8,163 nucleotides of DNA from a bacterium (GTDB taxonomy: Bacteria > AUK180), in assembly GCA_030622125.1 (NCBI GenBank), contig JAUXGM010000097.1, positions 1 to 8,163 on the forward strand, written 5' to 3'. The notes beneath the pieces are model-generated. The model did no database searches, was not told the origin of the DNA, and worked only from the letters and a program-made list of their open reading frames with translations. Numbering within the stretch: position 1 is the first letter of the stretch; each line of letters begins with the position of its first letter. Positions 1,782-7,823 of this stretch are shown here, one piece after another. Made by a program: the position numbers and the translations under genes.

Positions 1782-3197
1782 ATGAAAAAATTCACAATAT
1801 TATTTATTTGTTTGATTTTTACAATTACCATTTTTTCCGAATCAAGAGAAGAAGGTAATTCCGATATTTTGATACCATCCGATGGAATGATACTTTCAAC
1901 CGCCGGTGGAATTGCATCTGAAAATCCAATGGCTTCAATCTTCTTTAATCCGGCACTGATCTCCAATCTTAAAATGAGGTATAATGTTAGATTTTCCTAT
2001 TTTAACGGTCTGTTTGAAGGAACAGAGATACAGGATATAAAAATAGGTCTGAACCCATTGAATAAGATCTATTTATATTTGAGTTACACGAATTTCAATA
2101 ATCCGAATTTTGATATAACCGATGCAAGTGGAAACATACTATATGAAGATAAAAGTATAGCCGGCAACAGTTTTATTAAATTTGCTCTATCATATAAGTT
2201 AAAAAATTTTTCAGCAGGTATTGAATTTTCTGATTATGGACTTACTATTGTACAATTTGAAGATGGAACCGTCAAAGAAGATACACAATTATTATCTGTT
2301 GGATTGACATATCAACTAAAAAAATATTTTTTCGGTTTGTCTATGATGAATGATATTGTTCTTGGTGATGGCATTACAAAAGGAGCAGTAAATTTAATGG
2401 CGGGAACAAGATTTTTAGAAGATAATTTGAGATTAAACTTCATTTTTTCACGGATGACGGAAAGGGATTCATATAATGCAAGAGGAGGTCTTAGTGCCGA
2501 ATATCTCATTTCAAATATAATATTTTTAAGGGCAAGTTATTTTGACGGGATCAATCTTATGTCGGATGGTCTATATTTTGGTCTTGGCGTAAGATATAAA
2601 GACATTGACATTGATTATACTTTTTCATTCGGAGAATTGGGAACATACCATTATATCTCTGTTGAATATGGATTTAAACCATTATATGATGAAGAGAAAA
2701 GTATTTCAAAACCGGCAAAAAAGAAGAAAGTAAAAATTAAAAGAATCGTAAAAAGAAAAACACCGAAAACAAAACCGGTACCGCCTCTCAAAAAAATACT
2801 CTGTGCAGTACTCGATTTTGAGGGGAAAAATATGACGAAAGAAGATGCCGAGATCATCACCGATTTTGTAAGGCAGGATATGATAAACTCAAAATACTTT
2901 AATGTTTTGGAGAGAAGTGCGATCAATCAAATAATGGAAGAGGTTCAATTTCAGCAAACCGGATGTACATCAGCAGAATGTGCAATTCAAATCGGTAAAG
3001 TACTCGCGGTAAAAAAAATGGTTGTCGGGACTGTTTCAAGGCTTGGAAAGAAATACTTTATTACGGTTAGAATGGTGGATGTTGAGACATCGCAAATTGA
3101 TCTTGCTACATCAATAGGAATTGCCGCACCGATTGAAGAACTCCCATCCCATGTTAATAAACTTATTGAAAAAATGATAGGAAGTTTGAATAATTAA
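1782..3197 (+). CDS. PorV/PorQ-like outer-membrane beta-barrel fused to a CsgG/LpoB-like domain
   Basis: This 471-residue protein has four parts. Residues 1 to about 19 are a signal peptide (MKK start, hydrophobic core, cleavage near FSES). Residues about 30-300 are a beta-barrel with alternating aromatic strands; its start (STAGGIASENPMASIFFNPA) matches the AGGA...NPA signature of PorV/PorQ and FadL-like proteins. Residues 306-338 are a linker with 16 Lys/Arg in 33 positions, ending in a Pro-rich stretch. Residues about 339-471 are an alpha/beta domain of the CsgG/TolB-N/LpoB type: strand CAVLDFEGKN, helix, NVLERSAINQIMEE, then TGCTSAEC with C395 and C400, IGKVLAVKKMVVGTVSRLGKKYFITVRMVD. In known families PorV shuttles T9SS cargo, whereas CsgG-like domains form secretion pores or activate cell-wall synthases. 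I infer that the soluble domain hangs into the periplasm. The gene starts 2 bases after a T9SS-type cargo gene, suggesting a partner role. Its exact function is unknown to me. Confidence 0.75.
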   Translation: MKKFTILFICLIFTITIFSESREEGNSDILIPSDGMILSTAGGIASENPMASIFFNPALISNLKMRYNVRFSYFNGLFEGTEIQDIKIGLNPLNKIYLYLSYTNFNNPNFDITDASGNILYEDKSIAGNSFIKFALSYKLKNFSAGIEFSDYGLTIVQFEDGTVKEDTQLLSVGLTYQLKKYFFGLSMMNDIVLGDGITKGAVNLMAGTRFLEDNLRLNFIFSRMTERDSYNARGGLSAEYLISNIIFLRASYFDGINLMSDGLYFGLGVRYKDIDIDYTFSFGELGTYHYISVEYGFKPLYDEEKSISKPAKKKKVKIKRIVKRKTPKTKPVPPLKKILCAVLDFEGKNMTKEDAEIITDFVRQDMINSKYFNVLERSAINQIMEEVQFQQTGCTSAECAIQIGKVLAVKKMVVGTVSRLGKKYFITVRMVDVETSQIDLATSIGIAAPIEELPSHVNKLIEKMIGSLNN

Positions 3198-3232: not shown

Positions 3233-3901
3233 TTATTCTTCTTCTATTGTAATTCCTTCAAGAAGGAATTTATATGTTATTTTGACATCAACATCATCAA
3301 CTGCGGTTTCTCCCTGCATTGCCGGTGTAAAAACACAGTTCTTCGCACCATTCATTGCTGCCTTATCAAGTATATCGGAACCACTTGTTTTACTGAGTAT
3401 TACTCTCGTTACCTGTCCATTGTTATCCAATGTACAAATAACATCTACCAACCCTTCAAGCCCCATTTCCTTTGCGATCTGCGGGTATTCGGGAATTGCT
3501 TTTTTAATGATCATCGGAGGAATAATTGCACCTATATCACGTAGATTTTGAAGAGTTTTATCTTCATCTTCAATAATCTCTTCGGGAATTTCCGGTAACG
3601 GTTCATCTTTTCTTGGATCGGGGACGGCTTTTGGTATTGCCCGATTTCTCGGTCTAAATATATTGTCTTTTGTCCTTTTTATTTTTTTATCTTCCAATTT
3701 TTTCCTCGGAATAGTATATTTAATAGGTGTGAATACTTTTCTTTTCCCATGCTTATATATCTGGGGTTTTTTCTTAAATTCTCTAATGCCGACAAATAAT
3801 ACTACATGTATTAAAAGTGCAAGGATTAAAGCAATAATAGAAGTTTTCTTTTCAAATCTTCTTTCTTCAATAAGCTTTTCCTTGATAAGATCTATCATCA
3901 T
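3233..3901 (-). CDS. tonB: TonB energy-transducing protein
   Basis: The 222-residue protein couples the ExbB/ExbD motor to outer-membrane receptors. Residues 1-19 are cytoplasmic and charged. Residues about 21-39 form the single membrane anchor and contain H32, the likely counterpart of the essential membrane His of E. coli TonB (H20). Residues 40-127 are a periplasmic linker that is strongly basic up to about 98 and acidic from 99 to 114. Residues about 130-213 are the TonB C-terminal domain (PEYPQIAKEMGLEG, strand VDVICTLDNNGQV, then NCVFTPAMQG and VDDVDVKITYKF). It carries two cysteines, C156 and C189. The start is the first of two adjacent ATGs: AGGAGT at 3907-3912 sits 5 bases upstream. 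It is the last gene of the receptor-exbB-exbD-exbD-tonB unit, 12 bp after the second exbD. Confidence 0.93.
   Translation of the reverse strand: MMIDLIKEKLIEERRFEKKTSIIALILALLIHVVLFVGIREFKKKPQIYKHGKRKVFTPIKYTIPRKKLEDKKIKRTKDNIFRPRNRAIPKAVPDPRKDEPLPEIPEEIIEDEDKTLQNLRDIGAIIPPMIIKKAIPEYPQIAKEMGLEGLVDVICTLDNNGQVTRVILSKTSGSDILDKAAMNGAKNCVFTPAMQGETAVDDVDVKITYKFLLEGITIEEE
3251..3270. repeat. Perfect short hairpin at the 3' end of tonB, possible terminator for the opposing + strand unit
   Basis: AATTCCTTC and GAAGGAATT form a perfect 9-bp inverted repeat around a 2-base centre (or 8 bp with a CAAG tetraloop). It lies inside the last codons of tonB and 53 bp past the stop of the + strand barrel gene. 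On the + strand it is followed by a modest T-rich stretch (TATATGTTATTTTG); on the - strand no T-tract follows. It could therefore end or stabilise the + strand transcript, but the weak U-run makes this only a candidate. No better terminator is seen in the 35-bp gap between the convergent genes (3198-3232). Confidence 0.3.
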
Positions 3902-3906
3902 AAGTG

Positions 3907-3912
3907 ACTCCT
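3907..3912 (-). promoter_or_regulatory. Ribosome binding site of tonB
   Basis: On the - strand AGGAGT lies 5 bases before the ATG at 3901-3899 and falls in the 12-bp gap after the second exbD stop. Spacing favours the first of the two tandem ATG codons, though initiation at the second would change the protein by one residue only. Confidence 0.7.
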
Positions 3913-3913
3913 A

Positions 3914-4354
3914 TTAATTTTGTGGAAGTTGGAATTCTTTGTCAAAATCGATCAATGTCTCCTCTGTTGATTGAAATGCAATCTTTTCCACTCCACCTAT
4001 GAGAACCTGATCAATGGTATCCACTAAATACTTATATGGTGCCGTAGGTTCCACTTTGATAACTACAAAAACATCCGGTCTAATAAGTTTCATTGTTTGT
4101 ACAGTTGTCTTAATTTCCTCAAAGGGTCTCTCTTGCCCATCTATTTGTATACTGCCATTGGCAAAGACAGTGATCTCAATATTTTTCTTGCTTAATTCAA
4201 CTTCATTAACAGAATCAGGCAATTCATATTTCAATCCGGCTTCTTGAGAAAAGACAGTTGTTAACATAAAGAATATAATAAGCAAAAAAGCAATATCCGA
4301 CATTGAAGAAGCAGGTATTTCAGTAGATGCTTTCGCTCGTCTTTTTATCTTCAT
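3914..4354 (-). CDS. exbD: ExbD-type biopolymer transport protein (second copy)
   Basis: This 146-residue ExbD/TolR protein is a rotor or stalk subunit of the proton-driven TonB motor. It has a short basic cytoplasmic N-terminus, one membrane helix at about residues 19-36 (SDIAFLLIIFFMLTTVF), and a periplasmic domain. D20 at the helix start corresponds to the proton-carrying Asp of the family (D25 in E. coli ExbD). The periplasmic part ends in an extra acidic tail (about 129-146) that the first copy lacks. Its ATG overlaps the stop of the preceding exbD as ATGA (4351-4354), and AGGTGAG at 4358-4364 is a plausible ribosome binding site inside that gene. Its N-terminal segment is nearly identical to that of the neighbouring copy while the rest is divergent. 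A TolR role is possible in principle, but the context with tonB and a receptor favours ExbD. Confidence 0.92.
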   Translation of the reverse strand: MKIKRRAKASTEIPASSMSDIAFLLIIFFMLTTVFSQEAGLKYELPDSVNEVELSKKNIEITVFANGSIQIDGQERPFEEIKTTVQTMKLIRPDVFVVIKVEPTAPYKYLVDTIDQVLIGGVEKIAFQSTEETLIDFDKEFQLPQN

Positions 4355-4770
4355 TTTCTCACCTTTTTGTAATTAACGGCAAGAGCAACCTTATTCACAT
4401 AGCCTTCCTGTACCTTATCTAATATTTCTTTTATTACAGAATAAGGAATACTTTCATCTGCTTTTAGAACTACATAGGTATTTGGTTTTCTCATTCTTTC
4501 AGCCATAATAAGTGCTGAAAGCTGTTCTAATGCAATTGGTTTTCCCTCGAGTGCAATGATGCTACCATCGCTCCCCTTTTCAATTGCAACATGAATAACC
4601 GTTTGTTCCAATACTTTTGGTTTTGTTGCTTCGGGAAGGGAAATATCAAGTCCTTGTTCCTTATTAAAAACAGTTGTAATCATAAAAAATATGATAAGTA
4701 AAAAAGCAATGTCCGACATTGCCGAAGCAGGTATTTCAGTAGATGGCTTGCTTTTGGTTTTTACCTTCAT
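4351..4770 (-). CDS. exbD: ExbD-type biopolymer transport protein (first copy)
   Basis: A 139-residue ExbD/TolR protein with the usual plan: basic N-terminus, KPSTEIPASAMSD, a single membrane helix at about 19-36, and a periplasmic domain (about 40-139) ending in basic residues. D20 is the expected proton-translocating Asp. The start codon overlaps the exbB stop by one base (TAATG, 4770), and no strong ribosome binding site is seen close by, so translation is probably coupled to exbB by re-initiation. It lies directly before a second exbD with a 4-base overlap. Two ExbD paralogues next to one ExbB suggest a mixed ExbD pair in the motor rather than two independent systems, because only one exbB is present here. 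Confidence 0.92.
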   Translation of the reverse strand: MKVKTKSKPSTEIPASAMSDIAFLLIIFFMITTVFNKEQGLDISLPEATKPKVLEQTVIHVAIEKGSDGSIIALEGKPIALEQLSALIMAERMRKPNTYVVLKADESIPYSVIKEILDKVQEGYVNKVALAVNYKKVRK

Positions 4771-5432
4771 TACTTGCTTAACTCCATTTCCTCAATGACC
4801 TCTAATAAAACATTAGAGGATTCCTGAATATCCATCGTGAATCCATCCAACATATTTATGAAGATATTATACATAATAAGTGCCGGAGCTGCAATAGCAA
4901 GACCGGTTGCTGTTGTGATCAATGCTTCAGAGATGCCTCCTGCAACAATAGTGGGATCGCCCAATCCACTTTTTGCAAGATTTCCAAAGGCACCGATCAT
5001 ACCGGTAACGGTTCCAAGAAATCCAAAAATAGGCGCCAAGCTAACAACGGTTGCAAGCCATACCAATCCCTTCTCTAATTTAGAAAGCTCAACAGCCGCT
5101 GCTGCCTCCATTGTTTTCTCAACCATATCTCTTTTTTCCTGAGATTTGATCTTTAAGGAAGAAATTTTTTCAAGGTCCTTATACTTTGTCAGTCCTTCAT
5201 GAACAACTGCTGCAATTGGTCCGTTTGTTTTTTCACAAAGATCCAAAGTGCTTTCAAGATCTTCTTTTTCCAAAAGCTCAATGACCATTCCCAAAAATTC
5301 TTTTGTGTTGATCCTCTTTTTAAGATAGGTGATCAATCTTTCAAAGAACATAAATAATGCTAAAAGTGATAAAATCAATAGCGGCCACATTATTGGTCCG
5401 CCCTGCTTAAAATAATTAAATAATCCACCCAT
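4770..5432 (-). CDS. exbB: ExbB (MotA/TolQ/ExbB proton channel family)
   Basis: The 220-residue protein is the membrane stator-like pentamer subunit that surrounds ExbD and powers TonB. It has a first membrane helix at about 14-36, a cytoplasmic helical domain at about 40-115, and two further helices at about 122-150 and 165-193. Family signatures are clear: FGFLGTVTGMIGAF (136-149), with T141 matching T148 of E. coli ExbB, and GGISEALITTATGLAIAAPA (165-184), with E169 and T174 matching E176 and T181. An upstream in-frame TTG at 5438 would add two residues, but AGGAG (5439-5443) abuts that TTG directly, whereas it is 6 bases from the ATG at 5432. I therefore take the ATG. It begins 15 bp after the receptor stop and overlaps exbD by one base. 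Confidence 0.94.
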   Translation of the reverse strand: MGGLFNYFKQGGPIMWPLLILSLLALFMFFERLITYLKKRINTKEFLGMVIELLEKEDLESTLDLCEKTNGPIAAVVHEGLTKYKDLEKISSLKIKSQEKRDMVEKTMEAAAAVELSKLEKGLVWLATVVSLAPIFGFLGTVTGMIGAFGNLAKSGLGDPTIVAGGISEALITTATGLAIAAPALIMYNIFINMLDGFTMDIQESSNVLLEVIEEMELSK

Positions 5433-5438
5433 TGTCAA

Positions 5439-5447: not shown

Positions 5448-7823
5448 TTAAAAACTAATATCTACACCGGCTTTTGCCCTTGCCGGCGTGCTATAAAATT
5501 TTGCAGAACCATCCTCCCAGACATCCGTAACATTTTTCGTATCAAAAATATTTGTAATCTCAAGATATATCTTGTATTTTAAACCAAACCATTTAACATT
5601 ATTGAAATACTTCCAAACGGTTCCATCAATTCTTTTATAAAGAGGGTATCTTGCATCATTGGTCAACCCCTTTTTGCCACCGTCTACAGAAGTATAGGGT
5701 TTGCCTGTGTGGAAATATCCAATCAAACTGGCCCCGTAACTTGCACTTTCATACCCGAATTGAAAGGTAAGATTATGCGTAATATCCCAATCTAACGGAA
5801 ATTCTTTCGGCGGTAATACATCTATTGAAACAAAGGGATCTGATGAGGTTCCCTTTGCATCGGATAAAGTATAGGCAAGCCGCCAATAGTAATGGTTGGA
5901 AAATCCCTTTGTAAGTTGAAGTTCAAACCCCTGTGCATAAGAATGATCAACATTCATCGGCATAGGTCTATCGCTGCCGCTTAACCTTGAATTGCCTGCA
6001 ACATACTTGACAAGATCACTTGTATTTTTATAGTAGGTAACAAGATCCAACTTTAAAACATCAGAGAGAAGATAGGTAATTCCATATTCGTAACTAACTG
6101 CATTTTCGGGATTCAGGTATTGATTATTGCTTTGATCCTTATATGACTCGTATTTCTCTTGCAAAATATACATCATCGGCGGTGCCTGATAGAAGATACC
6201 ATAAGTGAATCTAAATTTTGCCCTGTCCGTTATTGCAAATGAAACAAAACCTCTCGGTGAAAATTGTGAAACGGAATATTGTCTCCTATCATACCTAACA
6301 CCGATATTCATAACAAGATCCTGGTCCCAATCCATATAATCACGAACATAAAATGCCTGTTCGTCAACATATCTGTGATATATATCAGTGGATTCCCAAT
6401 CGGCACCGGGGTAATATACATTAAATGATCTGAGATCATAGTAACTATAAGCAAGCCCCGTCTTTATCTGATGAATACGATTGATCTGATTGACGGCATC
6501 TATCTTTACGGTGTATTGTGTGGATGTTCTGTCTGCATAAACAGGATAATCCCAACTGTACGGATCGTATTCAAATTCATATTCACTTAGTTCTTTATCA
6601 TGTACCTTTACCGATAAACCATTTTGGAATCTATATAAGAATATCTGATAAAAAAGATTCCCGGATAATCTATGTGCCCATTCAAGGTTTAACTGATTGT
6701 TCGTCTGGTGTTGTGTCGGCTGATGTTCTGCGGTTGGCGTTGTATTATATTTTTCAGTACGATAATTAATATCGGCAACCGAATACTGAAAACCAAATTT
6801 TATTTTGATCTTCGGATTTATTTTCAAGGTGAGTTTTGAAGCTGTGTCAATATAATTTCTCCAATCCCAGTTAAGAAAACCCGTTGAATATTCCTTGTCG
6901 AAACTTATCGGATAATCGGGATCGGAATATTTCGGATCAGCTCTCCATTTATAATCTCCGATGAATTGTGAACCGGATGTATAGAAAGATAAGAACGGAT
7001 AACCTCTTTTCTGTTTAAAGATTGATATCGGTCCGCCAAGTTGCCAATTAAGGTCTTTATCTCCCATATTTGCATTTTTCCAAACTAATTCGCCTGTATA
7101 GTAAGATAGACTGCCTGAATACTTTTTCCCGCCTTCCTTTGTAACAACATTTATTATCCCTGAAAGTGCGCCACCGTATTCTGCGGAATAACCGCCGGTC
7201 TTAACGGTCATTTCCTTAATGGAATTCATATTCAAATTTCCGCCGAAAGTACCTGTTATAGGATCCCTAATGGTCATACCGTCAACCATATAGTTAACCT
7301 CATCATCCCTGCCTCCTCGAATATGAAGTTGTTTTCCATCACCTATTACCCCGGGTACGGTTTGAGCCATTGCGAACATACTACCAACAGGTACATTTTC
7401 CATTTCCTGTGCCGAAATATTATGTTCGGTTGCTCCCTTAGATCTCTGGATCTTTACGACTCTTTTGTCAACAACCTTAATAATTGTTTTTGAAGCGATC
7501 CCCTTTTTCAATCTTATCGGAGATTCCGTTGAAACGCTATCAGCAGTAACGATCACATTTTCTCTCTCCTGGATACCATATTTTGCATGTTCAACTCTGA
7601 GCGTATAAAAATCCACAGATAGACCCGAGAAGAAATACTCCCCCCTTTCATCCGTTGCCTGTGAAATGTCCAATTCCTTGATGGTAATCTTTACATCCAT
7701 AATCGGATTGCCTGTTGCATCATCTAAAACAATGCCTCTAATTCCACCGGTATTACCGGCATAAGTAATGACACCGGTAAAAAGTAATATTATTATTGCG
7801 AGAAACCTGAAAGCACTCTTCAT
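5448..7823 (-). CDS. TonB-dependent outer-membrane receptor with N-terminal CarboxypepD_reg-like domain
   Basis: The 791-residue protein is an outer-membrane gated channel. Residues 1-22 are a signal peptide (cleavage after TYA). Residues about 27-107 form a CarboxypepD_reg-like Ig fold (IRGIVLDDATGNPI, TDERGEYFFSGL, YTLRVEHAKYG). Residues about 110-230 are the plug: ISAQEMENVPV, LHIRGGRDDEVNYMVDGM (166-183), then GGYSAEYGGALSGIINVVTK (210-229). The rest is a beta-barrel of many aromatic-rich strands, ending in a C-terminal Phe as is usual for Bam-assembled barrels. The segment between the Ig fold and plug (about 112-125) is where a TonB box should lie, but no classical box is obvious. There is no SusD-like partner next to it, so it is not a typical glycan-uptake pair. 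The substrate is not readable; iron complexes, vitamins or peptides are all possible. It is the first gene of the tonB operon, with its own strong promoter and ribosome binding site. Confidence 0.94.
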   Translation of the reverse strand: MKSAFRFLAIIILLFTGVITYAGNTGGIRGIVLDDATGNPIMDVKITIKELDISQATDERGEYFFSGLSVDFYTLRVEHAKYGIQERENVIVTADSVSTESPIRLKKGIASKTIIKVVDKRVVKIQRSKGATEHNISAQEMENVPVGSMFAMAQTVPGVIGDGKQLHIRGGRDDEVNYMVDGMTIRDPITGTFGGNLNMNSIKEMTVKTGGYSAEYGGALSGIINVVTKEGGKKYSGSLSYYTGELVWKNANMGDKDLNWQLGGPISIFKQKRGYPFLSFYTSGSQFIGDYKWRADPKYSDPDYPISFDKEYSTGFLNWDWRNYIDTASKLTLKINPKIKIKFGFQYSVADINYRTEKYNTTPTAEHQPTQHQTNNQLNLEWAHRLSGNLFYQIFLYRFQNGLSVKVHDKELSEYEFEYDPYSWDYPVYADRTSTQYTVKIDAVNQINRIHQIKTGLAYSYYDLRSFNVYYPGADWESTDIYHRYVDEQAFYVRDYMDWDQDLVMNIGVRYDRRQYSVSQFSPRGFVSFAITDRAKFRFTYGIFYQAPPMMYILQEKYESYKDQSNNQYLNPENAVSYEYGITYLLSDVLKLDLVTYYKNTSDLVKYVAGNSRLSGSDRPMPMNVDHSYAQGFELQLTKGFSNHYYWRLAYTLSDAKGTSSDPFVSIDVLPPKEFPLDWDITHNLTFQFGYESASYGASLIGYFHTGKPYTSVDGGKKGLTNDARYPLYKRIDGTVWKYFNNVKWFGLKYKIYLEITNIFDTKNVTDVWEDGSAKFYSTPARAKAGVDISF

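Follow-up and report, generated by a model that had tools for sequence, protein, structure and literature searches.

Why would an outer-membrane barrel that resembles a secretion shuttle carry a second, soluble domain at its C-terminus? This question is raised by a gene in the 8163-base stretch of DNA analysed here (the window), which is an entire contig from the 2.08-Mb genome (192 contigs) of a deep-branching bacterium. A sequence-only reading of the window had proposed that the gene joins a PorV-type barrel to a domain of the CsgG superfamily. This gene and its upstream neighbour contain the following features:

1-1779, + strand: partner gene for a secreted protein, truncated on its 5' side at the contig edge, with 592 aa present (tail models)
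1507-1755, + strand: T9SS type A-like sorting tail of the partner (YPNPT... GRY...), residues ~503-585 (Pfam, NCBIfam, tail HMM)
1782-3197, + strand: fusion gene, PorV-like barrel plus TolB-N/LpoB/CsgG-fold domain, 471 aa, starting 2 nt past the partner's stop codon
1782-1841, + strand: Sec-type signal peptide, residues ~1-20, without a lipobox Cys (sequence reading)
1857-1967, + strand: N-terminal hatch helices, residues 26-62, with a conserved NPA motif at 56-58 (alignment and AlphaFold2)
1974-2681, + strand: outer-membrane barrel of 14 strands, residues 65-300 (AlphaFold2; PorV Z 30.1, FadL Z 27.4)
2691-2795, + strand: disordered Lys/Arg-rich linker, residues 304-338 (pLDDT <50 at 304-335)
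2796-3194, + strand: predicted periplasmic TolB-N/LpoB/CsgG-fold domain, residues 339-471 (Pfam, AlphaFold2, fold matches)
2964-2981, + strand: C-x4-C pair (Cys395, Cys400), probably a disulfide, invariant in our two alignments (A1 and A2)

The coding sequence is a single unbroken frame with an ATG start, and the AlphaFold2 model of the whole chain, computed from a 16-row alignment (pLDDT 80), contains a folded barrel and, C-terminal of the linker, a compact alpha/beta part (residues 339-470). The proposed union of a barrel and a soluble domain of the CsgG superfamily in one chain was thus borne out. Full-length two-domain relatives with 33-50% identity to the window protein were found at 13 loci (L036-L048) in all four other family genomes, and the fusion is kept across the five genomes, which represent four genera, with 1-5 paralogues in each. 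We therefore rejected an assembly or frameshift artefact. The linker contains 10-17 Lys and Arg residues in most relatives.

The same architecture, which the sequence-only reading had proposed to look for, recurs outside the family in an Elusimicrobia MAG (L067), a Caldiserica MAG (L068) and a distant family, f74 (L128-L132 and L135; L134 has an additional OmpA domain). In a sample of 386 genomes, with four candidates scored per genome, single alignments across both halves came from the window's family and f74 among the matches listed. These relatives were reached by alignment-based search; a single-sequence search of the genome contigs gave no match, and no relative was detected in viral contigs. 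One member of the family, a protein of 739 aa (L066/L049, G001:C13), has a different PorV/PorQ-like barrel and Ig-like repeats, and its C-terminal domain is 67% identical to that of the window protein, suggesting that the domain has been swapped between barrels.

The barrel is closest to PorV. The fold search of the PDB with VIA-align, using the whole model, placed 8gl6_F on top (Z 30.1 over 281 residues), followed by 6h3i_F (Z 30.0) and FadL (Z 27.4). The entry 8gl6 is a T9SS complex with the bound CTD of RemA, and in view of this title we take chain F of both structures to be PorV. FadL-like barrels in BAM complexes of Bacteroidota matched at Z 22-24 (for BamG, see PMC12611786). At the sequence level, the NCBIfam model PorV_fam (NF033709) matched residues 43-180 (2e-9) with 37.5 bits, under its cut-off of 90 bits, and the Elusimicrobia relative scored 82.4 bits; phmmer against the PDB gave no sequence match. 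These results confirm a FadL-type barrel of 14 predicted strands with an N-terminal hatch and PorV as its best PDB match; the assignment to PorV rather than FadL stands as the better match, with the caveat that both share one fold family. With an even number of strands and a periplasmic hatch, as known from FadL and PorV, the barrel should leave the C-terminal domain of the chain in the periplasm.

The premise that PorV/PorQ proteins normally end after the barrel does not always hold: 13 of 20 long-ORF hits extend 155-503 residues beyond it, and TPR and OmpA domains are among these extensions. The window's genome itself contains a second PorV barrel with a wall-binding tail (G000:C166, L138:475-2454, + strand; 660 aa), in which a PorV_fam barrel is followed by a coiled coil and by OmpA-like and SPOR-like regions; its gene lies directly behind a gene for a sorting-tailed protein. 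In a protein of 803 aa from f74 (L134:1244-3652, G219:C88), also encoded behind a tail gene, a PorV barrel is combined with two CsgG/FlgO-like domains and, at the C-terminus, an OmpA domain.

The C-terminal domain belongs to a superfamily whose members could not be told apart here. Residues 339-439 matched the Pfam models CsgG (PF03783; 1.3e-6; 28.3 bits versus a gathering score of 20.8, covering profile positions 37-102 of 210), LpoB (PF13036; 9.7e-6; 26.0 versus 22.3 bits) and TolB_N (1.3e-4), all above gathering scores, whereas the NCBIfam equivalog for LpoB (TIGR02722) did not reach its cut-off (28.8 versus 110.55 bits). Folded alone from a 28-row alignment, the domain was predicted with a pLDDT of 90.4 and matched TolB-N (Z 13.8; 124 residues, 20% identity), FlgT (13.1), PelC (12.8), LpoB (12.5; 12% identity) and CsgG (12.0). 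As Z differences below 2 cannot choose among these folds, we treat them as tied, with TolB-N nominally first. The earlier designation as CsgG/LpoB-like was thus correct for the superfamily fold and the Pfam hits and has to be widened to TolB-N, FlgT and PelC. Unlike TolB, the fusion protein has no beta-propeller, and its domain is joined to a barrel in the membrane. The window's genome (G000) encodes a TolB-N/CsgG-like domain at eight further places, with varied partners (C27, C119, C151, C157, C26 [L050-L054] and C17); it precedes C-terminal helices in C27 and, according to our reading, a domain resembling formylglycine-generating enzyme in C119.

The fold invites two functional interpretations, both of which we consider unlikely. 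The domain may act like LpoB, the activator of PBP1B, with the barrel replacing the lipid anchor and the domain crossing the peptidoglycan to stimulate a cell-wall synthase, which would couple surface display to wall growth. Indeed, an outer-membrane anchor, a flexible disordered linker and a globular domain of this fold follow each other in the same order in LpoB; yet LpoB is lipid-anchored without a barrel and shares little sequence with the domain, TolB-N, FlgT and PelC match equally well, and the linker has just ~35 residues. Alternatively, the domain may form a ring that clusters barrels or makes a periplasmic collar or pore, as ring formation is known for CsgG, PelC and FlgT of this superfamily and the PelC dodecamer and the LPHT ring are among the fold matches (Z 12-13). 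Against this, the domain has 133-137 residues compared to ~200 for CsgG (CsgG chain range 48-248), and strands 78-113 of the isolated domain are joined by short turns alone, leaving no room for the two transmembrane beta-hairpins of CsgG. A curli-type CsgG secretion pore was rejected on this basis; the protein also lacks the lipobox for N-terminal lipidation and is not encoded in a curli locus.

More informative was the gene upstream, whose T9SS sorting tail had been overlooked in the sequence-only reading. Matches of this tail to curated models were weak (Por_Secre_tail 7.3e-4, 20.2 bits versus the Pfam cut-off of 27; model of the PorZ C-terminus 3e-5), and a lineage HMM trained with the genome left out recognized it with 7.8e-27. 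A sorting-tailed gene lies directly upstream of the fusion in all 15 family members (window and L036-L049), typically with a 4-nt overlap and otherwise with gaps of a few nucleotides, 2 nt in the window. TIGR04183 matched 16 of 21 upstream proteins at E values up to 0.1; the tail at L049 was not reached by the HMM and was recognized from a YPNP motif together with a match to TIGR04183 at the tail position. Tail genes also adjoin the fusions of the Elusimicrobia and Caldiserica MAGs and L128, L129 and L134 of f74, the exceptions in f74 being L130 and L135, with one or two intervening genes, and L131 and L132, which have another barrel type and no tail gene. Applied to the loci (192 ORFs), the leave-genome-out HMM found 18 tails, of which 17 lay directly before a PorV-type barrel, a ratio that is biased because the loci were picked around fusions; a fair background is at least 27 tails per 2-Mb genome, by our estimate ~1-2% of genes. 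Three of these 17 tails precede plain PorV-type genes in the window's own genome (L136-L138), where a plain PorV-type gene at C162 is likewise paired with a tail gene. In a wider sample of 20 ordinary PorV-family genes, we read 14 as immediate followers of a tail gene; this was often PorU itself, which agrees with the retention of PorU by PorV. The pairing of tail gene and barrel gene is well supported.

This constant pairing is left unexplained if the barrel transports hydrophobic molecules in the manner of FadL and the domain is its periplasmic acceptor or regulator. The fold match to FadL, the NPA motif and the hatch helices agree with such a transporter, but PorV is ahead both by fold and by sequence, and the FadL family Toluene_X was not reported for the window protein in the Pfam and NCBIfam profile searches. 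We regard this explanation as quite improbable.

On the complementary strand, convergent to the fusion gene, the window encodes TonB, ExbD, ExbD and ExbB in a row (3233-5438, - strand), next to a TonB-dependent receptor with an N-terminal carboxypeptidase-regulatory-like domain (5448-7823, - strand). A functional link of the fusion to the TonB-ExbD-ExbD-ExbB genes was rejected: they are absent near the other fusions, among the neighbours listed, and we treat them as chance neighbours.

Across 11 non-redundant pairs, tail and barrel distances were correlated (Mantel r 0.77, p 0.0002), and the correlation persisted when the domain was accounted for (partial r 0.73), while that of tail and domain given the barrel was 0.12. 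The tail-barrel value is raised by the joint inheritance of neighbouring genes; yet the barrel and the domain, which are parts of one gene, were less correlated (0.39). On average, barrels were 30%, tails 27% and domains 55% identical, and the better conservation of the domain is expected if its periplasmic partner is shared by the paralogues. The simplest reading of this co-divergence would be that barrel and tail recognize each other and that the domain meets a constant partner. Together with the gene pairing, it suggests that the fusion barrel binds the sorting tail of its neighbour. That the fusion has no working role, the domain being a mobile module parked behind a barrel, is highly improbable: these genomes do contain many copies of the domain, with varied partners, but the fusion is kept across genera and paralogues, with stronger conservation of its domain than of the barrel.

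The machinery for handling such tails is at least partly present. All five family genomes encode a SprA homologue of 1766-1794 aa, which together with its frame neighbours exceeds the cut-off in three of them and reaches 4e-37, below the cut-off, in the window's genome, and each contains 27-43 sorting tails. With its tailed neighbour and these SprA homologues, the proposed connection of the barrel to the T9SS has become stronger. The PorU model matched only tail regions in the family genomes, and the Peptidase_C25 and GldM profiles gave no match there, in searches in which no positive control rang. Lacking matches for GldM and the sortase peptidase in these searches, the system may be unlike a standard T9SS and may possibly work without the usual sortase. 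Without a sortase the tails would remain on the proteins and hold them on their barrels, as with PorU and PorZ.

Taken together, we favour, with a probability of about 0.62, a cognate pair of T9SS cargo and shuttle in which the barrel comes with a periplasmic tether of its own. The first gene would encode a surface protein with a sorting tail, and the PorV-type barrel would receive this tail from the SprA translocon and retain it thereafter, in the way that PorU stays on PorV and PorZ on PorQ. The 35-residue basic linker would extend the domain from the periplasm-facing C-terminus of the barrel, allowing it to dock on a periplasmic partner common to all paralogues, such as cell-wall or envelope machinery. 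As tail-gene adjacency and fusion come together, the probable role of the pair is to hold a single dedicated surface protein and tie it to the interior of the envelope. Retention of the partner at the surface is suggested by this arrangement, and the assignment of the C-terminal domain as the tether is a reasonable inference. A more far-reaching version, tentative and rather doubtful, is that dedicated pairs of type A cargo and PorV without a detectable sortase exist throughout the lineage, their barrels being permanent surface anchors and the conserved domain signalling the surface protein's state or position to a single common machine in the periplasm, which would make the shuttle a trans-envelope coupler or sensor.

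The proposed cognate pair with a tethered barrel has precedents. Tailed proteins are held by barrels in the PorU-PorV and PorZ-PorQ pairs (PMC5562754), and the fusion shares with PorV and PorQ the 14-strand barrel with hatch, the best PDB match and a gene adjoining that of a sorting-tailed protein; in contrast, the known PorV and PorQ stop at the end of the barrel. In F. johnsoniae, genes for type B cargo are followed by those for cognate PorP/SprF shuttles, some with PorE for wall anchoring (PMC9143113, PMC12618676), and in the complex of PorE, PorP and a type B CTD a T9SS surface protein is linked via a barrel to the cell wall (PMC9143113). A link from secretion to the wall is therefore known in another form, and the suggestion that it was undescribed did not hold. 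In both systems the shuttle gene is directly downstream of the cargo gene, and the proposed pair would share with the PorP type a barrel that anchors the cargo and a periplasmic part that ties it inward. However, the fusion has a PorV-like barrel and type A-like tails (TIGR04183), and its periplasmic part is in the barrel chain and differs in fold from PorE, whose chain ends in OmpA; PorP and PorE are two proteins for the task proposed here for one chain. In the literature covered, mostly outside subscription journals, we found no description of a PorV-type barrel and a TolB-N/LpoB/CsgG-fold domain in one chain. The combination of a PorV-type barrel, type A-like tails and a periplasmic part in the barrel chain appears to be new, the idea itself being known from PorP and PorE.

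A single PorV handles all type A cargo in the Bacteroidota studied, and wall anchoring there is the task of the separate PorP and PorE, whereas here the PorV-type shuttle has been multiplied, paired with its own cargo and equipped with a periplasmic domain. If this reading is true, barrels of the PorV type can act as permanent anchors, each specific to its cargo, and connect the cell surface with the periplasm, also in bacteria other than Bacteroidota. The locus would offer a small system of one cargo and one barrel in which to test how a sorting tail selects its shuttle.
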